Virus record (IMG/VR): IMGVR_UViG_3300004154_000044
Location: 1-24,711 of that record
Strand: one strand, 5' to 3'
DNA length: 24,711 nucleotides
Origin: a virus
Part shown: piece after piece, positions 2,710 to 13,741 of the stretch
How the letters are laid out: each line of letters opens with the position of its first letter
Numbering within the stretch: position 1 is the first letter of the stretch
Notes under the pieces: model-generated
Databases searched by the model: none
Told to the model about the DNA's origin: nothing
What the model saw: the letters and a program-made list of their open reading frames with translations, nothing else
Program-made: the position numbers and the translations under genes

Positions 2710-3084
2710 TTATTCTCCTTCCAGTTTTGTGAGTTCTGAAACCATGTCTTCCTGACTAAGTTTTGCAAAGGCTTTTATTTCTGCCTTAGTAACCTGGTAG
2801 TTGTCCTCATAATACTTCTGAAGTTCTTCCTCTGTCAGATCATCAAACTTACCGGGTTCTTTTTTCTCCTTGGGCTTTTCTGGTATTTTATCTATACCCT
2901 TAAACTTTAAGAATTCAGCTTCTGTAGCAACTGAAAGATGACCACCGGCAAGTGACTTCTTAACGAAATCACTTTTGATTTGTTTTGGATTCAACTCAAC
3001 AACTTCATTCCCAGAAATGTTAAGCCTTGAATATGGGTCAAAGAAAGTACTTGCTTTTGAACCCAGTTTTAGATACTTTGCCAT
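2710..3084 (-). CDS. Small head-associated protein, unknown function
   Basis: A 124-residue protein directly downstream of the major capsid gene. The N-terminal half (to about residue 65) is mixed: 'YLKLGSKASTFFDPYSRLNISGNEVVELNP'. That pattern is typical of short phage proteins beside the capsid gene whose N terminus forms a small beta domain. A charged Lys/Glu/Pro linker (66-78) follows, then a helical tail (79-124) with 'LTEEELQKYYEDNYQVTKAEIKAFAKLSQEDMVSELTKLE'-like SAP/HeH character, which I give only in outline. No catalytic motif is visible. A head-fibre or head-completion role is inferred from position only. Confidence 0.6.
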   Translation of the reverse strand: MAKYLKLGSKASTFFDPYSRLNISGNEVVELNPKQIKSDFVKKSLAGGHLSVATEAEFLKFKGIDKIPEKPKEKKEPGKFDDLTEEELQKYYEDNYQVTKAEIKAFAKLSQEDMVSELTKLEGE

Positions 3085-3108
3085 AATTGTTTCCTCCGTT
3101 TGTTTTTA

Positions 3109-3160
3109 AATAGTCTAGACCCTAATACCTAATTTATAAGTACTAGAGCCATAGACTATT
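3109..3160 (-). terminator. Two-tiered hairpin after the major capsid gene
   Basis: Outer arms AATAGTCTA (3109-3117) and TAGACTATT (3152-3160) are perfect 9-mers. Inside them CTAGTAC and GTATTAG can pair over 7 bp with one wobble. It lies immediately 3' of the capsid stop codon on the minus strand. There is only a weak T-run, so it may be a transcript-stabilising or attenuating structure rather than a full terminator. Confidence 0.5.
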
Positions 3161-3170
3161 AATGTAAGGA

Positions 3171-4271
3171 TTACTGAATAGCAACATTCTGAGCAGCATC
3201 CACATCCATCCAGGTGGGGAATCCATAGCTTGCGAAAGCTTTTGAATCATCCATGATGATTGAAGAATCTCTGAACAATTTGGCAAAGCCGGTCTGAAGG
3301 GTTACATAAAAGGCCTCTGTCTGATTGGATACGATCCTTTCAGATTCAACTTTAAGAGGCCATCCATTGAACTTGATTATACCGCCTTTTGGGTCAAGTA
3401 TAATAGTCTGATGGTCAGGAACATTTCCATGTACGAAAATGTTAGAAGCCGTTGGTATTGGAGACTTCATGGTAATACTGGCAAGGGGTGTTCCCTGAAC
3501 AGGTGTTTTGAATTCTGTAAGGTCCAGAATATCTGCACAAACATCTTCACCGGCAATCATTGTATTGGGTACTCTTCCCATTCTGCCAAGTCTTACCCAG
3601 ATTTTCAGAAGGTCTTTGTAAACAATAGATGAACCCGAAGCAGTACCAACAACCGGAGCTGATTCTGAACCGTCAGTCTGTTCTCCATTGATAAGGCAAT
3701 TGATTGCCAATACATCAGTTGCGTGACCAAGTTTTACTCCGAAGTCAGTCATAAAGATAGATACCAGATTCAATGAAGAATAGGTAACTACTTCATCTGA
3801 GAGTTTAATCCCTTTACCAACTTTATAAATCTTGAACTGTTTCGAGCCATAAGAGATTGACCCCAGGGGGATTGTTTCTCCTTCACCTACATAATGAGGT
3901 GTAGCTTCTGACATATTGATCCATGGCATAACTGTACTGAGCCCCCTCATTTGCTCTTCAGCAGCAATTATATTAGGATAGATAGGAGCTCCCCTGTAAC
4001 CCAACAGGAGTGCTGAACGGAATACTTCCGGGATAATCCAACGAACATCCACCTCGGGAACTGTTATAAGGTTAGATATAGTGTCCGTAGCAGGGTCAAT
4101 CCCCAGGTCTGACAGCAATGATGGGAAATCCGAGTTAAATTTCTCTTTGACAACTTCTGTAAAGGATACATCCTTTGGATTGTCTTTATGAGAACGGATT
4201 GCCTCTGCAGCTTTTACAGTTTCCTGGATTCTGCCTTTAAATCGACTGGCTTCAAATTTTTTGAGATCCAT
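3171..4271 (-). CDS. Major capsid protein (HK97-like fold)
   Basis: A 366-residue protein. An N-terminal charged helical segment (residues 1-50, 'KRIQETVKAAEAIRSH'-like) precedes the body. The body shows HK97-family landmarks: a long central helix region after 'GVKLGHATDVLAINCLINGEQ', the 'NTMIAGEDVCADILDL' segment, and a terminal 'FAKLFRDSSIIMDDSKAFASYGFP' region. Gene order (terminase, portal, protease, decoration, this gene) is the standard place for the capsid subunit. It forms the icosahedral shell and is probably trimmed by the protease encoded at 5118-6629. The start at 4271 is chosen because the frame opens there and the upstream gap holds only AT-rich sequence. The assignment rests on size, position and fold pattern, not on a database match. 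Confidence 0.88.
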   Translation of the reverse strand: MDLKKFEASRFKGRIQETVKAAEAIRSHKDNPKDVSFTEVVKEKFNSDFPSLLSDLGIDPATDTISNLITVPEVDVRWIIPEVFRSALLLGYRGAPIYPNIIAAEEQMRGLSTVMPWINMSEATPHYVGEGETIPLGSISYGSKQFKIYKVGKGIKLSDEVVTYSSLNLVSIFMTDFGVKLGHATDVLAINCLINGEQTDGSESAPVVGTASGSSIVYKDLLKIWVRLGRMGRVPNTMIAGEDVCADILDLTEFKTPVQGTPLASITMKSPIPTASNIFVHGNVPDHQTIILDPKGGIIKFNGWPLKVESERIVSNQTEAFYVTLQTGFAKLFRDSSIIMDDSKAFASYGFPTWMDVDAAQNVAIQ

Positions 4272-4330
4272 TGTGGTAAAATATTATATGTTTATATTAT
4301 ATATACGTATGGTCTAGTATTAGCCAACCA

Positions 4331-5056
4331 TTAAAGGTGAAGGGCTACGCGAACTACATCCCCATCGGCGGTTGCTGCATCAAGACAGTTCCCTACAATA
4401 GTAGTGTGGTCAATTGTACCACCATCATCAACCTCCATCCAATCATTGGTAGAGTTCCAGGCAGCCATACGGCATGGACCTGCAGTATGAGAAGCAGCAT
4501 AAGCCTCAGCATATACCACTGCAAAGGCAGCCATCATAACAGTGATTAAATCACCACCGTGACCGGTATTTACTGCGATACCAAGAGCCTTCTTGGGAAT
4601 ATCACCAGCAGCATAAGGTTCAACTTTACCTGTAGTGGTAAGTTTTACCAATTGGCCTTTGGCAATATTATTGTTATCAGTAGCATAGGCCCAGGTACAC
4701 TGGGTAGCTCCAGCTGTAGTCACGAATTCATGAAGTGCCAGAGTCTCCAATTCTGGATACTGAGCAGTTACAGTGATTACGTTAGTAGCTGTTACTGTAG
4801 CAGAAGCTACATTGGGATTTGCGGCAATAGCTGCAGCTATAAGACCCATAGTAGTGGCATGATCTGTAGCATAGGTAACGGCAGCTATGGCAACGCCATT
4901 GACTTTACCATTTATTACGTTACTTGCTACCATGGGAACTGTACCACCAGCAGTAAGGGTTACTTTATAGGCATCTACTTCAAACTCCTCGTGTAGTTTA
5001 TGAGACTCACTTTTAAGGATGAAGGTTTTCGTTGTTGTTCCAAAAGGTTCTGGCAT
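4331..5056 (-). CDS. Capsid decoration/stabilisation protein (DUF2190-like with inserted beta domain)
   Basis: A 241-residue protein located between the protease and the capsid gene. The terminal parts resemble DUF2190-type capsid cement proteins: 'IAKGQLVKLTTTGKVEPYAAGDIPKKALGIAVNTGHGGDLITVMM' gives the repeated 'kGdlV.l...gk....ag......GvA...a..Gd.v.v' pattern, given here only as landmarks. An inserted module at about residues 28-98 has a 'VNG...Y.TD.ATT..LIAAAIAANP.V..A.VTATN.ITVTA' pattern seen in beta-rich virion modules. It contains the residues AAAIAANPNVASATVTA. The protein is Ala/Thr/Val-rich, with few charges and no signal peptide. It probably coats the shell exterior. Confidence 0.7.
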   Translation of the reverse strand: MPEPFGTTTKTFILKSESHKLHEEFEVDAYKVTLTAGGTVPMVASNVINGKVNGVAIAAVTYATDHATTMGLIAAAIAANPNVASATVTATNVITVTAQYPELETLALHEFVTTAGATQCTWAYATDNNNIAKGQLVKLTTTGKVEPYAAGDIPKKALGIAVNTGHGGDLITVMMAAFAVVYAEAYAASHTAGPCRMAAWNSTNDWMEVDDGGTIDHTTIVGNCLDAATADGDVVRVALHL

Positions 5057-5117
5057 GACTTAGAATATTTTAATTATTTTCAATTTTGCATATTAATAAT
5101 TGCTAAGGTCTAGTAGC

Positions 5118-6629
5118 TTATTTGGAGCCCTCGATAAAGCGAGTATCTACCTTACCAACGCTGGTGAATTTATCAATCACATCACCAGTACTGGCAATGG
5201 CCTTGGGTTCTTCTATGGTAGGTTTAGCTGAAGCTCTTGTAACTTCATGAGAACCACATTTCTGACAAGTAAAGCTATACTGCCCATCAGTAAGAGTATC
5301 ATACTGCTTATGTAAAGCTTTTAGGGTTTCATAACTAGCAGTATTAATTACTGCAAGAATAGCCGCATCTTCTTTACCGGATTCAACAGTTAACTTATAA
5401 AGCCTGGCAGTGTCATCCTTAAGTTCAGAAAGGATGGTAGTACCAACCTCAGCCAACTGAATCTTTTCTTTATAGTCAGTGGGGACTTCTGATTTAAAAG
5501 CCCTTAAGGTGGTTATTTCAGTTTCAATAGCCTGAAGACCTTCCAAGTCAAGAATTTTAACTGGGGCAGGAGTTTCTGCTACTTTGGCCCTTAAACCAGT
5601 TACTTCGGTATTTAGGGTTGTCATCTTTTCCTGATAGTTTTCCTCTGTAAGTGAGTTAGCCTCAAGTCCCAGAGATACTTCAAGAGCTCTTAGAAATTTG
5701 TCCATGTTTTCTTCTGTTTGTGAATTATCAATTGAATAATATTGTATTTTAGTTCCATCCTCACTTAGAGTTTCCATCCCAAAGGAATTACCATCAAAAT
5801 TCTTCCAATCGAATATGGCAAAACTCAAATCATCCTTTATTGACTGATCTGATAGAGGGTATCTACTCTTTGCATAATTTGGCAATACTATTTTCCCGTC
5901 TTTACCCACCTTCTGAGCAAAGGGATCTGCACCATGACCAACCAGTGACGTTTCATGATAGGCCACTACTTCAACTACTATTTTCTGTATAATATTGCCT
6001 TTATTATCAAAAGTAGATAATTTTGACATAAATTCTTCATCTGACATTTCCGGATGAGACTTCTTCCAGGCAAAATTAACTGTAACTGAATTTGAATGTA
6101 TTGATGGTGGATCCATCATGATACCCCTAGCTATCCTTGGATTTGACTTACCATCTATCTTTAAGGTAGCATTTATACCAGCTGGTACTTTTACCCCTTC
6201 TTTGGTAGTATAGGCATTTTGCCATTCTACCATCTTAACAGAACCTATTGCATTCCCTACGGCCATTTCATGGTCAATATTTACTGTTTGACCAATTAAT
6301 TTATACATGCTCTTTTTAAGAACATCAGCCGGAAAATATATAGGGTGAAAATTAGCATGTACCGTAACATTAGAAAGCATCCTATAAACAGGCTCTATAA
6401 ATTCATCATCTTTTGGTGATAAATCTTCAGCAGTTACTTCTGGGTAATAAGTAGTATAGTTGGGAGATGAAGAATCAAATAACCCCAATTTACTAATATC
6501 TTGAGGATGTTCTTCGATGATCTGGTTAAGTTTACTTATACCCATTTTATCTGGACAATGACCCAGAATCAAGGCATGACCCGCACAGAGTGTAACTTTA
6601 TCATAATATACTTTTTGTGGTTTAGCCAT
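5118..6629 (-). CDS. Prohead protease fused to scaffold domain
   Basis: A 503-residue protein. The N-terminal part (about 80-240) has features of phage prohead proteases: 'TVNIDHEMAVGNAIGSV' with His120, 'PPSIHSNSVTVNF' with candidate nucleophiles Ser179/Ser181, and 'ETSLVGHGADPFA'. In this family a His and a Ser at those spacings form the active site. Residues about 320-430 are long, charged and heptad-like, as expected of an internal scaffold. A CxxC pair with a nearby His (CQKCGSH, about 457) suggests a small zinc-binding turn near the C terminus. The fused arrangement lets the protease enter the procapsid with the scaffold and then digest it. It is placed between the portal and decoration genes. 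The catalytic residues are inferred by position only. Confidence 0.78.
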   Translation of the reverse strand: MAKPQKVYYDKVTLCAGHALILGHCPDKMGISKLNQIIEEHPQDISKLGLFDSSSPNYTTYYPEVTAEDLSPKDDEFIEPVYRMLSNVTVHANFHPIYFPADVLKKSMYKLIGQTVNIDHEMAVGNAIGSVKMVEWQNAYTTKEGVKVPAGINATLKIDGKSNPRIARGIMMDPPSIHSNSVTVNFAWKKSHPEMSDEEFMSKLSTFDNKGNIIQKIVVEVVAYHETSLVGHGADPFAQKVGKDGKIVLPNYAKSRYPLSDQSIKDDLSFAIFDWKNFDGNSFGMETLSEDGTKIQYYSIDNSQTEENMDKFLRALEVSLGLEANSLTEENYQEKMTTLNTEVTGLRAKVAETPAPVKILDLEGLQAIETEITTLRAFKSEVPTDYKEKIQLAEVGTTILSELKDDTARLYKLTVESGKEDAAILAVINTASYETLKALHKQYDTLTDGQYSFTCQKCGSHEVTRASAKPTIEEPKAIASTGDVIDKFTSVGKVDTRFIEGSK

Positions 6630-6667
6630 GTCAATGGAATTTATTAATATAATCTTTAGTATTGTTT

Positions 6668-8182
6668 TTATTCTTCTACACTATTCATGTAGTCCAAAAT
6701 AAGGTCGATTAAATAAGCAGCATTGGCCTTTGCATCTTTTCTTTTTGGTTGTGGCTTATTTTTATCCCTAACTTTTCTATCTGAGGCATCTTTATCTTTC
6801 TCCCTCTTCTGATCCATCTCTGCTTGTTTATCTGGCAACACCCTTGGTTCATCAACATCTGGTTTATCATAGCCTAATTCATCTGCAACCTGTTGTTGGC
6901 TGATTGCACCCTGACCATATTTAGCGATAACATTGCGTATTTTAATTTCTTGACCCTGCTGGAATTTTAATTCATCGGTAATGGTAGAAGGATTAAATTC
7001 TACTCTCAGATTTTCAAAAGTAAAACCAGCTAATCTTAATTCAAGATCATAACCATGTTTTAAATTTGCAGCTACTATAGCCTGAATATTAGTGAGCTGG
7101 GATAGCATTTTGGTAAAGATAATGGTTATTCCAGTCTCAGTACCTTCACCACCTACCCCTAAGAACTCCTGATTGAATTTCAATCCAGTAGCTACTGATC
7201 TTTCATTTTGATTGTATAAATCTGCAACTCCAGTTAAATCTTTAGTAGTGGAATTAAAATTAAATTCATGGTCATCTCTATAACCAACTATAACACCTTC
7301 TCCAATACCCTCAATGATCTGAGCTTTGGCATTATCCAAAAAGGTTTGTAATCTAGCCTGATATTGGATATCGCCTTCCCCATCTATTTGATCGGGTTTA
7401 GTCATAAGAGTTTCAAAAAAACCTAATAACCCAAGTTGTTTCATAATATACCTGATATTTTGATCCATATCAGCTTGGGTAGATATGGCATTAAGAGCAG
7501 TTAAAAATGGTGGAATACCATAGGGTATTTCCTGATCACCATTTATACCATAATATTTATAGGTTAACTCATTTAACTTTTCATAATGATCCCCAATATT
7601 ACCCGTCATAGCATAGGTTTGTTTCTGGTGAGGTTCAAATCTTAACCTTTTCTTATTCCATGAAAAAACAATGGTTTCGGGATCTACCAATACAACATTT
7701 TTTATCCCCGATTTATCATTATCTACAACCCACTCAGTTGATAATGCACCGGCTATCCAAATCTGGGCAATCATTTTATTAACTAACCCGCTCATCCCAT
7801 CAACACCATCTCCCCACTCTTTTTGTTTGTTTTCTAGATGTTGACGCATTTTAGCCTGCATTTCTGGAGAGACCTTTGGGTCAAATTTAATCCTATGACC
7901 AGTATTGGTTAACCTCGTCATATCATTTACTGCAAGACCCATATCACCATTTACCCATGATAACTTCCTTATTATAGGAATATACTCAGCTATGAATGAT
8001 GGAGAAATAAATGTGGTCTTACCTTTAACATCAGTAAAGGTATTTTGTAGGGTTGGTCTACTACCCCTGGTAGAAGGAATGGTACCTTTAGAAACTATTG
8101 GTTCTAATTTAACCACCCTTTTAGGTAAAGGTGAATCTTTTTGAATTTCCCAGGGTAACCTGAATCTAAACTTGTTAGCCAT
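6668..8182 (-). CDS. Portal protein
   Basis: A 504-residue protein of normal portal length, located directly downstream of the terminase. Visible landmarks are an early 'FISPSFIAEYIPIIRKLSWVNGDMGLAVNDM' segment, 'IWIAGALSTEWVVD', 'VVLVDPETIVFSW', and 'IIEGIGEGVIVGYRDD', followed by a helical stretch 'LYNQNERSVATGLKF' and a basic, Lys/Asp-rich C terminus (about 455-490). The 'D-P-(E/D)-x-(I/V)' turn and the 'G...G' wing-to-stem region are common to portals of siphoviruses and podoviruses. It forms the dodecameric ring for DNA entry and binds the terminase. Functional confidence comes mainly from order, size and pattern. Confidence 0.82.
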   Translation of the reverse strand: MANKFRFRLPWEIQKDSPLPKRVVKLEPIVSKGTIPSTRGSRPTLQNTFTDVKGKTTFISPSFIAEYIPIIRKLSWVNGDMGLAVNDMTRLTNTGHRIKFDPKVSPEMQAKMRQHLENKQKEWGDGVDGMSGLVNKMIAQIWIAGALSTEWVVDNDKSGIKNVVLVDPETIVFSWNKKRLRFEPHQKQTYAMTGNIGDHYEKLNELTYKYYGINGDQEIPYGIPPFLTALNAISTQADMDQNIRYIMKQLGLLGFFETLMTKPDQIDGEGDIQYQARLQTFLDNAKAQIIEGIGEGVIVGYRDDHEFNFNSTTKDLTGVADLYNQNERSVATGLKFNQEFLGVGGEGTETGITIIFTKMLSQLTNIQAIVAANLKHGYDLELRLAGFTFENLRVEFNPSTITDELKFQQGQEIKIRNVIAKYGQGAISQQQVADELGYDKPDVDEPRVLPDKQAEMDQKREKDKDASDRKVRDKNKPQPKRKDAKANAAYLIDLILDYMNSVEE

Positions 8183-8234
8183 ATAAAATAATGGTTTACT
8201 TACAACTTATATAATATAATACACTGGTATTGAT

Positions 8235-9743
8235 TTATCTTGGTGCCGTAGTGGTAGTTGTAACTTTACCTTTCCTAATATAATTACAAATGGCTTTACC
8301 CATTATACTATCATCTGTATAAGTATTCTCATCGTCTAAGATATCTTCATCTTCAGTACCCCTGCTATGTTTACCCATAGCTACTGGTCTATTTCTTTCA
8401 TCATATATAAAGGTATATGCTTCTTGAACAAAAAACTTATCAGCAATAATAACTCTATCATTCCTAATATCATCTTCTAACTCATCAATAATAATGGGTC
8501 TAGTCTTTGAAGTAGTATACCAACCTGGAACTCTTTCTACCTTAGGTTTATTCTCTCCCTTTTCTTTTAAAAACCTAGTAGTATAGAATAAGTGTGGGTA
8601 ACCATTATCTTGTATTTTAGTGGTTACAGCTAAACCAATATCATTACTTTCTGGAGCTATTACAGCTCTATTATAATCTCTACCCACCCTCATTAATAAT
8701 TTAGAAAATTCCCCTACTGGTATTTTTCCTTTAAAATAAGCATATTCTGTACCTTCTCTATCCATTACTGTAAATGCAGAATAATCTCGACTTCTACCAG
8801 AAGCTATATCTGCGGCCAAATAAAATTTCTTATCTTTAATTGGTGGTTTAACTATTACTAAATTACCATTCATTTCCTCTTTAAAGACATCCATTTCGGA
8901 AAGCATATCCTCAATGGCTTTTATATCTAAAAGATCGAATACTGAGTTTCCAGAAGTAAGAAAATCACCATCGATCTCTTGTGCTGTTCTTCGAGGACCA
9001 AGAGCGGTAGACATAGTTTTATACCAATCTATATCTCGTTCAGGGTGCATTTGCCAATTAAGTCGTATAGGGGTAAAATCATTACCATGAGCAACAGCAT
9101 CAACCCAAGTCTTATGAAAGAAATTACCTACACCATAAGGAGTAGAATTTAGTATTGCTGAACCACCAGTGGATAGCGTTGGAAAAGCTGCCGCCCAAAT
9201 TTGAGAAGCCCATCTTACAATGGCCGCTTCATCTATTACTAATAGTGATACTGCTTCAGAACGACCGGCATCTTCGGTTGTTGGTATAGAAGTAATCATT
9301 GAGCCGTTAGAAAATTCAAGCTCTGTTTGTGTTCCAATTTCTCCCGGTCTCCCATTAACTATTGGGACTTGTAAAAACCAAGGAAGATTTCTATACATAA
9401 ATTTAATACGCCTTAGAACTTTCTTGGCAACACGGTCTTTTATGGAAATAATTTGGATATTTTTATTATCATGAAAAAGGGCTAACCAAAGGCAATATAA
9501 AGATATTAACTCTGTTAACCCAGCTTGTCTGAATTTTAATACGATATTGAATCTCCCAGTTAAAAAATACCATAATACCCTTTTTTGATAGGGATATAAG
9601 ATAAATGGAACTTTGCCTTGTATAGGATGTATTACTGAAACATATTCACTAAAATTAAATGGGTCTCTAGTACATTTCTCAAAGATCCTAAATTGATCAA
9701 TGGTCATTCCACGTATATCGGTTATTATCTCACCTCTAGGCAT
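8235..9743 (-). CDS. terL: Terminase large subunit (ATPase-nuclease)
   Basis: A 502-residue protein. The ATPase domain carries a Walker A-like loop 'KFRQAGLTEL' (residues 70-79), a Walker B 'LLVIDEA' (167-173, Asp171-Glu172) and a coupling motif 'NSTP' (199-202). The C-terminal nuclease domain begins with 'FYLAADIASGRSRDYSAF' (Asp312, Asp320), has a central 'APESNDIG', and ends with an acidic 'YTDDSIM' that would complete the RNase H-like metal site. It cuts the concatemer and pumps DNA into the procapsid through the portal. A small terminase gene is not found beside it; the neighbour upstream is the lysis-region membrane gene. The gene at 20302-21195 is a weak candidate. Confidence 0.93.
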   Translation of the reverse strand: MPRGEIITDIRGMTIDQFRIFEKCTRDPFNFSEYVSVIHPIQGKVPFILYPYQKRVLWYFLTGRFNIVLKFRQAGLTELISLYCLWLALFHDNKNIQIISIKDRVAKKVLRRIKFMYRNLPWFLQVPIVNGRPGEIGTQTELEFSNGSMITSIPTTEDAGRSEAVSLLVIDEAAIVRWASQIWAAAFPTLSTGGSAILNSTPYGVGNFFHKTWVDAVAHGNDFTPIRLNWQMHPERDIDWYKTMSTALGPRRTAQEIDGDFLTSGNSVFDLLDIKAIEDMLSEMDVFKEEMNGNLVIVKPPIKDKKFYLAADIASGRSRDYSAFTVMDREGTEYAYFKGKIPVGEFSKLLMRVGRDYNRAVIAPESNDIGLAVTTKIQDNGYPHLFYTTRFLKEKGENKPKVERVPGWYTTSKTRPIIIDELEDDIRNDRVIIADKFFVQEAYTFIYDERNRPVAMGKHSRGTEDEDILDDENTYTDDSIMGKAICNYIRKGKVTTTTTAPR

Positions 9744-9757
9744 AATAATACAAACAA

Positions 9758-9807
9758 AAAATTATCCAGATCGGATTTATCTTAAATAGTCCAACCTGGA
9801 TAATTTT
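9758..9807 (-). terminator. Intrinsic terminator between lysis genes and terminase
   Basis: Perfect 12-bp arms (AAAATTATCCAG at 9758-9769 and CTGGATAATTTT at 9796-9807) enclose a 26-base loop. On the minus strand the descending arm ends in TTTTTTG. It lies between the stop of the 9825-10595 gene and the start of terL, which separates the metacaspase/membrane unit from the head genes. Confidence 0.75.
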
Positions 9808-9824
9808 AAAAGCCTTATGCTAGT

Positions 9825-10595
9825 TTAAAAAGTATACTGTGCCCCGAAAAATCCGAACACCATGTGTTTGAAGGGTGTCGCTTTTACCATATCAAGTCCC
9901 AAACCTACATTCATATTAAAGGCTGAAACTCCAAGGGCAAATGCCGCAGGTTCATTATCGGTAATGGGTAGAAGGAGTAAACCCGTAAAACTATAGTTAT
10001 TATAGGGAACTCCATCCTTATCCACATAATGCGAATAAGAAATACCAGGGCCGGCTTTGGCAAGAGGTGACATATCGAAAAGTTTACCATCTTCATCTGA
10101 TAGTGTAACCTTTGTTGCAATAATGCCTACATCAAACCTAACAAGAAATTCTCCGCTACCATTTAAACCTTTCTCTGAGGACAATAGGTCTTTTGGTACG
10201 GGTTTTATCATCCCTCGCCAAGGTGACTGAGCATAAGAGGATACAGTTATACCCGTTAGCAATATCGCTATAATTATAATTTTAGGTAATAAACCTTTCC
10301 TTCTGGCATAATCAACTTTCTTTGAGGTATATATTACTTTACCCTTAACAAGTTTGATTAGGAAATTTACTACCTTTCGCCAAATAGACCCTTCAGGAAA
10401 TTTACCTGATTCACCCATCCATTCTGATATGGCTAACAAAAGAATAACTACTAATGCCGCCCAGTTTGATTTGAGAAATTCCAGAACGCCCTGTCCTTCG
10501 ACATGTTGAACATTCACATTTGTAGTGTCCTGTCCTACCGCTATCCCAATTGAGATAAATAGGATAATTGAAAAAAATGAAAGAAATTTTTTCAT
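9825..10595 (-). CDS. Membrane/outer-membrane protein with two signal-like segments (lysis candidate)
   Basis: A 256-residue protein starting 12 bases after the metacaspase gene. Residues 1-21 are a Sec signal peptide (MKKFL... ending AVGQ). Residues 43-57 are a transmembrane helix (WAALVVILLLAIS). Residues 72-105 are very basic (WRK, KLVKGK, KK, ARRKG). Residues 106-118 are a second hydrophobic core followed by 'SSYAQ', which resembles another signal-peptidase site. From 124 to 256 the sequence is amphipathic, Gly/aromatic-rich and ends in '...GAQYTF'; the terminal Phe is typical of outer-membrane beta-barrel proteins. The first half is holin-like, and the second half could reach the outer membrane in the manner of a spanin. 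It looks like a fusion of two exported modules. The lysis role is inferred from the nearby amidase. Confidence 0.6.
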   Translation of the reverse strand: MKKFLSFFSIILFISIGIAVGQDTTNVNVQHVEGQGVLEFLKSNWAALVVILLLAISEWMGESGKFPEGSIWRKVVNFLIKLVKGKVIYTSKKVDYARRKGLLPKIIIIAILLTGITVSSYAQSPWRGMIKPVPKDLLSSEKGLNGSGEFLVRFDVGIIATKVTLSDEDGKLFDMSPLAKAGPGISYSHYVDKDGVPYNNYSFTGLLLLPITDNEPAAFALGVSAFNMNVGLGLDMVKATPFKHMVFGFFGAQYTF

Positions 10596-10607
10596 AATAC
10601 TGATTTA

Positions 10608-11441
10608 TTAATTAAACACCTTTTTAATAAGTAATTCCTCTGGACCTTCCAAAGTTGGTATTTGATCAAAATAGTACGAGGGTAGATATTGTCTTATTTT
10701 TTCGTACCATTCTTTGTAATTCAGATCTCTTGATATAGTTTTGAGAGCATAATAAGAAAATGCTCCCCAATATTTACCATCTATGAAGGCATCATCAGAG
10801 GTTTGATTTTCTGAACAACCAGAGAATACAATCCAATTCATTTGTTCTGTTTTGAATACAGAACTTCTTTTCTTTTCCAAAAATGTTCCTGTACCTGGAA
10901 TAAACTTACCTTTCTTATATCCTGAATAAACATGTTTAGTAGCAGTACCTGAAAAACATGAGTCAAGAAAAATTACTACTGTTGCTCCCATAGGAATGTG
11001 CATAAGAGCTTCATGAATATCATCGTCTATTACTACACCGTCCCAAACATATAAACCCTCATCAAAATGATCTGATTCATCACCATTCTTATCTATGACT
11101 TGAGTACCATGGCCAGAATAGTGAATTACCAAGGTATCACCATATATAAGATTGGTTATGGCTTTATTTAATTCTGATATAAATAGTTTTACAGTTACCT
11201 GCTTATTTCTGAAATATGTAATTTCAAAATCATACAAAGCCTTTATGAAACCTTTATGGTCATTTATACAACCATGAAGATCATGATTAGAACCTTTATA
11301 ATCAGTTATCTCAAAGAGAATAGCTTTCTTAGGGTTACGAGGTAATACCTTTTTCTTACACATATACTTCTTGATGAGTTGGTAGATGGTTACGAAATTA
11401 ATCTTAAAATCATACTTAGAGAAATCAAAATCAAATTTCAT
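10608..11441 (-). CDS. Caspase-like protease (peptidase C14, metacaspase type)
   Basis: A 277-residue protein. The core shows the clan CD catalytic dyad: 'LVIHYSGHGTQ' with His111 and 'VIFLDSCFSGT' with Cys162, each following a hydrophobic beta strand. Other metacaspase features are present: the N-terminal strand plus 'DLHGCINDHKGFIKAL' helix (residues 55-70), the acidic 'NGDESDHFDEGLYVWDG' substrate-pocket region (119-135), and a p10-like 'FSGCSENQTSDDAF...GAFSYYAL' segment (206-233). Metacaspases usually cleave after Arg or Lys. There is no signal peptide; a 38-residue N-terminal extension precedes the first strand. It is followed after 12 bases by the membrane protein gene and lies between the endolysin and terminase genes. 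The fold call is very firm. Its role in a phage (lysis timing, host death, virion or defence processing) is unknown. Confidence 0.93.
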   Translation of the reverse strand: MKFDFDFSKYDFKINFVTIYQLIKKYMCKKKVLPRNPKKAILFEITDYKGSNHDLHGCINDHKGFIKALYDFEITYFRNKQVTVKLFISELNKAITNLIYGDTLVIHYSGHGTQVIDKNGDESDHFDEGLYVWDGVVIDDDIHEALMHIPMGATVVIFLDSCFSGTATKHVYSGYKKGKFIPGTGTFLEKKRSSVFKTEQMNWIVFSGCSENQTSDDAFIDGKYWGAFSYYALKTISRDLNYKEWYEKIRQYLPSYYFDQIPTLEGPEELLIKKVFN

Positions 11442-11483
11442 GTTCAGGTTATTAGAGATTAAAGGTTTAGGAGTAGACAGTTA

Positions 11484-11533
11484 AAAGGGTAATAATTATT
11501 TATATCTTTTATAGATATATAATTATTCCCTTT
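11484..11533 (-). terminator. Strong hairpin terminator after the endolysin gene
   Basis: AAAGGG and CCCTTT close a long AT-rich stem (AATAATTAT with ATAATTATT, then AGATATA with TATATCT, one base bulged). On the minus strand it ends in CCCTTTTAAC. It separates the methyltransferase-amidase unit from the metacaspase unit. The near-symmetry would allow action in both directions. Confidence 0.75.
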
Positions 11534-11557
11534 CTGTACACCACCCTTATATAAGTT

Positions 11558-12319
11558 TCAGGCCTTCTTTTTAGTGCTTTTTTTAGGGGAAATATTGGGT
11601 TTAATAGATTTTTCTTCGCCAAGTATTGGGCTAATATTGGGAATTACTGGTTCTGTATTGGTTTTAATAGGTTTTTCAACCCTTAAACTCTCAAGAACAT
11701 CAACTAATGGTTTATATGGAAATATATCATCCTTATCTATCCTTACAGTAGAGTGAGACCATATACCACCGATATGCCTAAGTAGTACATCAGGATTAAA
11801 GTCATAAAAACCATCAAAGTCAGTTTGGGGTACAATAGTTGGGAAATCTGTCAGTATTTTATTTAATAACTCTCCAAGAGCTATCATTTGGGCTTCAGTA
11901 TATTTATGGTAAAAACTATACCCTCTCCAAGGATTTGTTAAAACCATTACTTCATCTTTAGGAATTATTTTCCCACTAACCTTATTAGGATATAATGGAT
12001 AAAAATAGAAATTACTATCATCACCCCTATAAAGTCTACCCCCAGAAACCAATTCAATGTTTACAGAGTGCATTTCATGATAATTATCATCTCCATTAAT
12101 CCCTAAATGGAAAGCCCATATTTTAGGATCAAAACACTCAACTATGGTACCATTACGGTCTATAATATATGGAGTGCCCACTCTTTCAGGTGTTTGATTC
12201 CACCATCTCCAAGCTCCTTCGGCACTTAAACCAGCGGTATGATGGAGAAAGATCGAAGTCTTCTCAAACTCTGCTGTTAAATATTGACCATTGGTTAAGT
12301 ATTTTTTAATTATGTTCAT
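11558..12319 (-). CDS. Endolysin: N-acetylmuramoyl-L-alanine amidase (Amidase_2)
   Basis: A 253-residue protein. Zinc ligands expected for this family are visible: His26/His27 in 'IFLHHTAG', His189 in 'IWSHSTVRIDKDD', and Asp197 where T7-type amidases have Cys or Asp. 'TPYIIDRNGTIVECF' and 'NIELVSGG' are typical strands of the fold. The catalytic domain ends near residue 205. A Pro/Ser/Lys-rich tail of about 48 residues with near-repeats (NISPILGEE, NISPKKS) follows and may bind the wall or the virion. It hydrolyses the amide bond between MurNAc and the stem peptide. No signal peptide is present, so export needs a holin. The first 14 bases overlap the 3' end of the methyltransferase gene. Confidence 0.9.
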   Translation of the reverse strand: MNIIKKYLTNGQYLTAEFEKTSIFLHHTAGLSAEGAWRWWNQTPERVGTPYIIDRNGTIVECFDPKIWAFHLGINGDDNYHEMHSVNIELVSGGRLYRGDDSNFYFYPLYPNKVSGKIIPKDEVMVLTNPWRGYSFYHKYTEAQMIALGELLNKILTDFPTIVPQTDFDGFYDFNPDVLLRHIGGIWSHSTVRIDKDDIFPYKPLVDVLESLRVEKPIKTNTEPVIPNISPILGEEKSIKPNISPKKSTKKKA

Positions 12320-13334
12320 GGTTGTAGATTTTTATCATATTTTCAAAAAACCATTGTCCTATCTCATAAGGTGGTGTTTTGGTAACGGTTGCTCTTCCTT
12401 TATTAATCCAATATTGAATATTATTGGGGTCTATATAAATTTTGAATGAATCAGGAACTCCTTGTATTCTGGCTAATTCTCTTGGTGACATTTGGAGTCC
12501 TTCGGGGTTAAATTGACGATTAGCTTTACGAGCAGTAGCTGGGAATTTATTTTGTGTGTTGCGATATACACCTGGCGCTGTTGTGAATTTTCGATCTTCG
12601 ACAACCCATCTAGATAATTTTGGATTGTTTTGCCAGATTTTTTGTACATCTTTTAGAGATATTTTAAATCCCGCATATAAGGTTATTATTGAATTAAGAT
12701 TTTCTCTAACATGGCCAAATTCAATATCTTCCTCATATAACCCTTTCAATAATTCTCCAGTTGTTTTTAACTCATTGATTTTATATATTTGCGAAATTTG
12801 GTATTGTATATAATCTAGGGCTGTGGGTATCTTCTCTCTGTTAATTCCAATGATTAATAACCTTATCCTATCTTTTTGTGAATTACCATAACCAGATACT
12901 GATGATACTAAATACCTAAGATTATATCCTTTAAAGAGGTTATTACAAAAATCATTATCATAAGTATCTAATAGTTTGGGTAAATTTTCCATTAAAAAGA
13001 AAGTAGGTTTAAACTTATTAACACATTTGCTATATAATTCCAAACTCTTATTATCCTTAGGATCTGATAAAGCTTTTCTTCTGCTATAAGATAATATAGA
13101 ACTATGACCACAATCTGGAGCCCCAATTATAACATCTATATCACTTTTTACATTTTGCCTTATTTCTTTTATGGTTTTATAATAGGGAATGTCATTAAAG
13201 TTTAATTTCCATTGAATATCCCCTTTGGAATGAAATATTGACCGTATTTCTATATTCCCAATAAGGTATTCTTTAAATGGGTGAAGTATTACACCATTAC
13301 CACCCATTACCCCAAGTACTTTTAGTTTTTCCAT
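12306..13334 (-). CDS. DNA C5-cytosine methyltransferase with variant motif IV
   Basis: A 342-residue protein. Motif IV is 'GAPDCGHSS' with the candidate catalytic Cys75. Most family members have Pro-Pro-Cys-Gln; here the residue before Cys is Asp and the one after is Gly. Motif VI is 'MENLPKL' (Glu116-Asn117), motif VIII 'SQKDRIRLLIIG' (Arg157-Arg159 region), and the target-recognition/motif IX boundary is 'QMSPRELARIQGVPDSF' (about 287-303). Motif I at the N terminus ('LGVMGGNGVILHPF') is degenerate compared with the usual FxGxGG. It should transfer a methyl group from S-adenosylmethionine to cytosine C5 and may shield phage DNA from restriction. No cognate nuclease is seen. It is the first gene of the minus-strand block and diverges from the tmRNA gene. 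Confidence 0.85.
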   Translation of the reverse strand: MEKLKVLGVMGGNGVILHPFKEYLIGNIEIRSIFHSKGDIQWKLNFNDIPYYKTIKEIRQNVKSDIDVIIGAPDCGHSSILSYSRRKALSDPKDNKSLELYSKCVNKFKPTFFLMENLPKLLDTYDNDFCNNLFKGYNLRYLVSSVSGYGNSQKDRIRLLIIGINREKIPTALDYIQYQISQIYKINELKTTGELLKGLYEEDIEFGHVRENLNSIITLYAGFKISLKDVQKIWQNNPKLSRWVVEDRKFTTAPGVYRNTQNKFPATARKANRQFNPEGLQMSPRELARIQGVPDSFKIYIDPNNIQYWINKGRATVTKTPPYEIGQWFFENMIKIYNHEHN

Positions 13335-13404
13335 ATCTATATATAAATGGGTCTTGCAAAATTCTAGACTTGACTATATATGTATGAAACGTTCATTGAT
13401 ATGT
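13335..13404. promoter_or_regulatory. Divergent intergenic region, probable promoters for tmRNA and methyltransferase
   Basis: An AT-rich stretch between the methyltransferase start and the tmRNA acceptor piece. It contains TATATATA-like boxes on both strands (13336-13348 and 13375-13384) and TTGC/TTGAC elements at suitable distances on the plus strand. No perfect TAnnTTTG box is present, so exact promoters are uncertain. Confidence 0.35.
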
Positions 13405-13410
13405 TTTTAA

Positions 13411-13451
13411 GGAAATGACTGGACCCGGGATCATACCCCGGCAGCTCCACA
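13411..13451 (+). ncRNA. tmRNA acceptor piece (T-arm and 3' acceptor strand)
   Basis: T-stem 13425-13429 with 13437-13441; T-loop 13430-13436 reads ATCATAC, keeping T55 and C56 but having A54 and T58 instead of the usual T54 and A58. The acceptor strand CAGCTCC is 13442-13448 and the discriminator base A is 13449. CCA is not encoded (CAA follows), so the tail would be added by the host CCA enzyme. Upstream bases 13414-13421 are the 3' strand of P2. Confidence 0.88.
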
Positions 13452-13628
13452 AATGGGGATGCAGGCTGTGAAAGCCGCCATGATAATCTGCAGTAAGCGT
13501 TATGGTGATGCCGATCTCCACCCATGCCACTCGCCAGTGGAAAAAGAGGGGGTAAGTTCGATACCCTTAAGAGGTAAGAATAGGTTCCGTTTTTACGGAA
13601 AGAACCACTACCCCCTCTTTAAAAATAA
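13452..13628 (+). other. Intervening segment of the permuted tmRNA with strong hairpins
   Basis: 177 bases to be removed during maturation. Structures seen: GGGGAT (13455-13460) with ATCTCC (13514-13519), enclosing GGCT/AGCC and CGCCAT/ATGGTG hairpins. There is also a 12-bp perfect stem AAAGAGGGGGTA (13543-13554) with TACCCCCTCTTT (13609-13620), enclosing a TTCCGT-TTTT-ACGGAA hairpin (13585-13600). The long stem ends 8 bases before the mature 5' end. It is far longer than a simple spacer would need to be. Confidence 0.7.
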
Positions 13629-13741
13629 GGGGCTGACTTGGACTTGACAGCATTGAGAAAGGGAACAAGGAGAACTTTTCAAATAATAACCGGCAAATCA
13701 TTAGAAATGCCACAGGAAGCTAAGCTTGCAGCTTAATTCCG
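13629..13741 (+). ncRNA. tmRNA coding piece with proteolysis tag
   Basis: Starts GGGGCTGACTTGGACTTGAC, close to the general tmRNA 5' consensus (GGGGCTGATTTTGGATTCGAC). The tag frame runs from the putative resume codon GGC (13692) to TAA (13734-13736) and encodes GKSLEMPQEAKLAA. The hydrophobic -LAA ending is the ClpXP-type degron end shared by tmRNA tags. The exact resume codon is inferred from the family habit of starting with Ala or Gly. Confidence 0.88.

Follow-up and report, generated by a model that had tools for sequence, protein, structure and literature searches.

What does a caspase-family protease do in a phage genome, encoded between an endolysin gene and the terminase gene? Caspase-like proteases in bacteria are mostly discussed as defence or cell-death enzymes. 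The window (the whole stretch of 24,711 nucleotides that was analysed, IMG/VR record IMGVR_UViG_3300004154_000044) is a phage contig, with genes for the terminase large subunit, portal, head protease and major capsid lying downstream of the protease gene and on the same strand. The preliminary description had placed the protease gene between an endolysin and the terminase, and the flanking annotations bear this out. The features used throughout are listed below; other loci are referred to by L-numbers.

8235..9743, minus strand: terminase large subunit (TerL), the downstream border of the cassette
9825..10595, minus strand: P256, a fusion of a holin-like and a barrel-like protein (blastp to the split genes of L145; model)
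10608..11441, minus strand: C14 (metacaspase-like) protease gene, 277 aa (Pfam, PDB sequence matches, Foldseek on the model)
10956..10958, minus strand: codon of the catalytic Cys162 (DSCFSG), assigned by sequence, invariant in the 23-sequence phage alignment
11109..11111, minus strand: codon of the catalytic His111 (SGHG), assigned by sequence, invariant in the same alignment
11558..12319, minus strand: endolysin (Amidase_2) directly upstream of C14 (PF01510, E 7e-10; phrog_1794 amidase, lysis)
12306..13334, minus strand: C5 cytosine methyltransferase, upstream of the endolysin (PF00145, E 4e-21; synteny in L007, L008 and L009)

The reading frame 10608-11441 (minus strand) is open throughout its 277 aa, and Peptidase_C14 (PF00656) matches residues 38-265 with 73.7 bits (cut-off 21.4). 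By sequence, every match of the protein in the PDB was a metacaspase or GSU0716. An AlphaFold model (pLDDT 82.8, with 23 phage homologues as the input alignment) led Foldseek to Arabidopsis MC9 and MC4, GSU0716, and the yeast and Candida metacaspases, at E-values from about 1e-16 (best 1.5e-16) to 1e-11, so that the structure search proposed in the preliminary description returned the expected fold. Its placement of the catalytic residues also stands: His111 and Cys162 align with the metacaspase dyad. Loss of either residue in relatives was looked for; the dyad is kept in 23/23 aligned sequences, and the 31 distinct C14 proteins collected from phages all have HG and DxC motifs. Sequence and model together confirm that the window gene encodes a caspase-family (metacaspase-type) cysteine protease whose active site appears intact.

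The phage C14 proteins share with the bacterial and Type I-like metacaspases (PF00656; yeast Yca1, T. brucei MCA2, GSU0716) the caspase fold, the HG and DxC motifs, a single chain containing both p20 and p10, and acidic residues (D61 and D160) at positions equivalent to the basic-P1 pocket. Unlike those metacaspases, they form a phage-only clade, sit in a lysis-gene neighbourhood, and carry a short conserved N-terminal 'MC' and basic segment instead of a long prodomain. Against BFVD, the clear named matches of the window model were to metacaspases or caspases from viruses that infect eukaryotes, chiefly giant viruses; no named phage protein was among them. Giant-virus metacaspases are likewise viral caspase-fold proteases, but they belong to viruses of eukaryotes and have no lysis cassette.

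Several details of the predicted enzyme follow from the alignment. D61 and D160 correspond to Asp95 and Asp211 of MCA2 and are invariant in the 23 phage sequences. We take these MCA2 residues to form the basic-P1 pocket; on that assignment their invariance predicts cleavage after Arg or Lys, which we infer to be the specificity of the window enzyme. Acidic segments (GDESDHFDE and IDDD) are present, and the Asp of the Yca1 'SGT-x-LD' motif is not conserved, the phage proteins having mostly Lys or Arg at that position; calcium control may thus differ from that of Yca1. Calcium influx through the holin was considered as a trigger and dropped, as the acidic site seems incomplete.

The start codon deserves a similar reading. 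An alternative start at Met27 (11361-11363) would give an ORF of 10608-11363 and a protein of 251 aa. In 13 of the 17 clade members 'MC' lies at or near the start, and the residues after it are mostly basic or aromatic; in the window protein 'MC' lies at residue 27, and since this motif is common to the starts of the relatives, the true start may be Met27. The C14 of L012 has a similar N-terminal extension, which is compatible with the Met1 start. No recognisable signal sequence was found in the window C14. An amphipathic N-terminal helix as membrane anchor was considered and rejected: the hydrophobic moment was not above background (p = 0.19), and positive charge was only slightly in surplus.

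A single-sequence scan of viral contigs returned no relative, so alignment-based scans of IMG/VR were needed; the 31 distinct phage proteins were counted after removal of duplicates. When C14 was searched by tblastn against 50,697 phage records, the only match was in a metagenomic phage of 485 kb that carries no annotation. A tree that also contained 80 bacterial homologues placed the window C14 and 14 other phage proteins in one phage-only clade of 15 (support 100/99); the bacterial set consists of the 80 best matches of one scan, and bacterial sequences beyond these could branch within the clade. By our own labelling, 11 of these 15 belong to a cassette. Prophages were considered as a source of the gene and discarded: near the 80 bacterial C14 loci, homologues of the barrel-like partner are absent and phage-like genes are very few. 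Two family members are permuted. In L031 (10001-10798) and L034 (9950-10756) the His-bearing segment (HNSTHG...DDD) is C-terminal, after p10, instead of before the Cys segment; Pfam matches fall in two stretches, both dyad residues are kept, and both genes lie in cassettes.

Of the 17 clade members, 11 are followed within 250 bp by a gene encoding at least two predicted TM helices, compared with 19 of 517 genes in the background (3.7%; Fisher p = 2e-11, the clade members being related and so not fully independent); among C14 genes outside the clade the count is 0/7. The typical order is endolysin, C14, a holin-like gene and often then a barrel-like protein with a signal peptide. Where holin-like and barrel-like genes are separate (split cassettes), the small holin-like proteins are homologues of one another; the label 'holin' is based on their length, the arrangement of TM helices and weak matches to PHROGs. 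The endolysin varies. Beside or near C14 we found Amidase_2 (window, L031, L151), M15 (L014, L029, L036), a phrog_465 endolysin (L034), CHAP (L142), a muramidase (L143) and DUF5675 (L012, L030, L122), a family with no assigned function that is found where the endolysins otherwise lie. Four of the five loci added by the last scan adjoin a lysis gene (L142, L143, L145, L151), L155 not clearly so, and the clade members L013, L022, L023 and L025 have no recognised holin adjoining C14. In the window itself the amidase lies upstream and the holin-like fusion downstream. The preliminary description had suggested a part in lysis and a survey of neighbourhoods in related phages; the survey shows the lysis-gene context recurring in unrelated phages, and this synteny supports the suggested link. 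On this evidence, the window C14 is probably an accessory lysis protease, an optional part of a cassette made up of endolysin, C14, holin-like and outer-membrane-barrel-like proteins.

Such a cassette resembles the classic phage lysis cassette (endolysin, holin, spanin) in grouping an endolysin and a small holin-like membrane protein in one block. It differs in having an extra protease of caspase or papain fold and a barrel-like protein in the envelope-spanning slot.

The partner gene in the window begins 12 nt downstream of C14. The two-gene unit with a membrane protein that had been proposed holds up, as P256 is homologous to C14-adjacent proteins in L012, L014, L142, L145 and L151. Its residues 1-105 resemble a 119-aa protein of L145 (blastp E 1e-10) and its residues 103-242 a 162-aa protein of the same locus (E 2e-16). 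Judged by these matches, P256 fuses a holin-like membrane half (about 1-105) to a half with a signal sequence and barrel-like character (about 103-256). The model has about seven strands in the C-terminal part. Foldseek gave no significant match for it, and VIA-align placed OmpA, PagL and OprH on top at Z of about 5, below the tool's stated noise level of Z 8, so the label 'barrel-like' draws mainly on the predicted strand pattern, the signal sequence and the C-terminal Phe. In split cassettes a barrel-like protein of about 155 aa follows the holin-like gene; it carries a signal sequence and ends in Phe, and its mature form opens with the conserved QSPW.GFF.P. A search of P256 for spanin features found no Cys, no lipobox and no PHROG or Pfam spanin match. 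From the style of the signal sequence (cleavage before Gln) and the barrel-like partner, the hosts would be Gram-negative, perhaps Bacteroidota.

The fusion raises a specific alternative, in which C14 is a maturation protease that cuts the Lys/Arg-rich loop joining the halves of P256, frees both and so sets the time of lysis. That P256 fuses proteins separately encoded in L145 fits this idea. So do four loci (window, L014, L032, L033) with a fused partner whose halves are joined by a Lys/Arg-rich segment; in all four C14 lies 12-98 nt upstream of that partner. The idea is weakened by cassettes in which C14 is present and the parts are already separate (L012, L024, L029, L030, L034, L122, L145, L151); moreover, basic residues ahead of a signal sequence are expected from topology alone. 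We judge maturation of P256 unlikely.

Scans with the barrel-like partner alone allowed us to see which proteins occupy the C14 position in nine informative cassettes. C14 fills the slot in five (L029, L031, L034, L036, L122), a papain-family C1 protease in two (L125, 9214-9966; L128, 8524-9279) and, in L126, a 258-aa protein with no Pfam or PDB match; in L134 the DUF5675, holin-like and barrel-like genes occur with no protease between them. The papain-family assignments have Pfam E-values of 1.7e-17 (L125) and 7.6e-14 (L128), and the papain-site Cys, His and Asn are common to both. A protease in the slot is frequent, not obligatory, and its fold is exchangeable. Papain-family C1 proteases are cysteine proteases like C14, but their papain fold is unrelated to the caspase fold; the exchange points to proteolysis, and not to an interaction specific to caspases, as the feature that is kept. 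Other phage C1 proteases occur in Alicyclobacillus phage MMB025 (deposited as 'endolysin'), Burkholderia phage FLC9 and Lak phages.

The nearest relatives of the window phage show that the gene is optional. L007, L008 and L009 have capsid and packaging genes in common with it, mostly at 50-83% identity, and their gene order is C5 methyltransferase, amidase, a protein of about 220 aa with one TM helix, and TerL, with one gene more in L007. Neither C14 nor P256 is present between amidase and TerL in these three; because they lack both there, C14 and P256 stand in the window where the relatives have the 220-aa gene. L009 does carry a different C14 gene (1660-2463, minus strand), equivalent to L016 9974-10777, in an opposite-strand block adjoining a thymidylate-synthase-like gene; this protein has a shortened acidic loop and the C-terminal tail FWQKIWSWFKKLFGIK and falls outside the cassette clade. 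In L028, which belongs to the same phage family by its capsid gene, C14 and a holin-like gene follow a tail gene. The absence of C14 from this place in L007-L009 and the other positions in L009 and L028 mark C14 as an optional, moving part, and L007 and L008, without C14 and P256 at this place, indicate that it is not essential in the family.

Mobility of this kind could also mean that the lysis side is a tolerated site for cargo, and that C14 cleaves a cytoplasmic host protein in counter-defence or host takeover. Its sporadic occurrence in the family and its position in L009 and L016 agree with this, as do C14 genes away from recognised lysis genes (the tRNA-rich region of L023; L015 and L017) and the general knowledge that bacterial caspase-like proteases take part in defence. 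The lysis neighbourhood nevertheless recurs in unrelated phages with differing endolysin types, the holin-like and barrel-like partner is conserved, and other cassettes have a papain-family protease in the C14 slot. PADLOC, too, gave no match for the window C14 or for P256; its 'caspase' model matched the C14 of L012 and L029 over part of the model length only. Counter-defence thus seems to us an improbable explanation of the window gene.

An accessory lysis protease would be made late, together with the endolysin. The holin-like part would then open the inner membrane, giving C14 access to envelope proteins, and C14 would help to dismantle the envelope; alternatively, its target at the membrane might be the holin/barrel partner. 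Lacking a recognisable signal sequence, C14 would reach the envelope only through a holin lesion, or would act at the inner membrane. Many endolysins reach the envelope through a holin lesion. A wider proposal, which we put forward tentatively and with more doubt than belief, is that some phages of Gram-negative bacteria lyse with a proteolytic step, in which a cytoplasmic protease of caspase or papain fold, a holin-like protein and an outer-membrane-barrel-like protein dismantle the envelope, replacing spanins or acting beside them.

The hijacking of host death pathways, also raised in the preliminary description, fared poorly. In its explicit form, C14 would activate a host death effector, e.g. 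a bacterial gasdermin, and the host pore would serve for lysis. Caspase-like proteases are generally known to activate bacterial gasdermins, but neither a gasdermin gene nor a CRISPR partner was recognised in the cassettes, the phages bring their own holin-like protein, none of the comparisons made here tied the clade to gasdermin loci, and the window protein has no PADLOC match; we consider this reading very improbable.

Phage-encoded metacaspases are seldom mentioned, yet they have a precedent: a 2012 survey (PMC3501461), the only paper on such operons that we found in the open-licence literature, terms eight Clostridium botulinum metacaspase operons phage-related. In that literature we found no phage lysis cassette described as containing a caspase-family protease. 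Our comparisons suggest that, for some phages, a caspase-like enzyme is an optional aid in breaking open the host cell. If true, phage lysis would gain a proteolytic component and caspase-driven death a virus-run counterpart; its significance rests on the phage-only clade beside endolysin and holin-like genes and on the papain-family swap in two cassettes.

Some further observations concern the loci themselves. In L030, a 122-aa protein (2959-3327) with a GGQ release-factor-like motif (SGPGGQHRNKVET), possibly a ribosome-rescue factor, is encoded between C14 and the holin-like gene. In the 100-kb phage contig L023, 23 tRNA matches (region 2823-12387) lie around the C14 gene; the contig also has two very long opposite-strand ORFs (1338 and 1416 aa). 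The window TerL has no intein-like insertion; those of L006 (837-3185) and L011 (6964-9459) contain an internal insertion resembling an intein with a homing endonuclease. No tmRNA scored above threshold in L007, L009, L010 or L011. The window carries a tmRNA candidate at 13391-13736 (plus strand; Rfam permuted model, 57.5 bits, gathering threshold 47). It includes acceptor and T-arm-like parts, and its apparent tag ends in AKLAA-stop.
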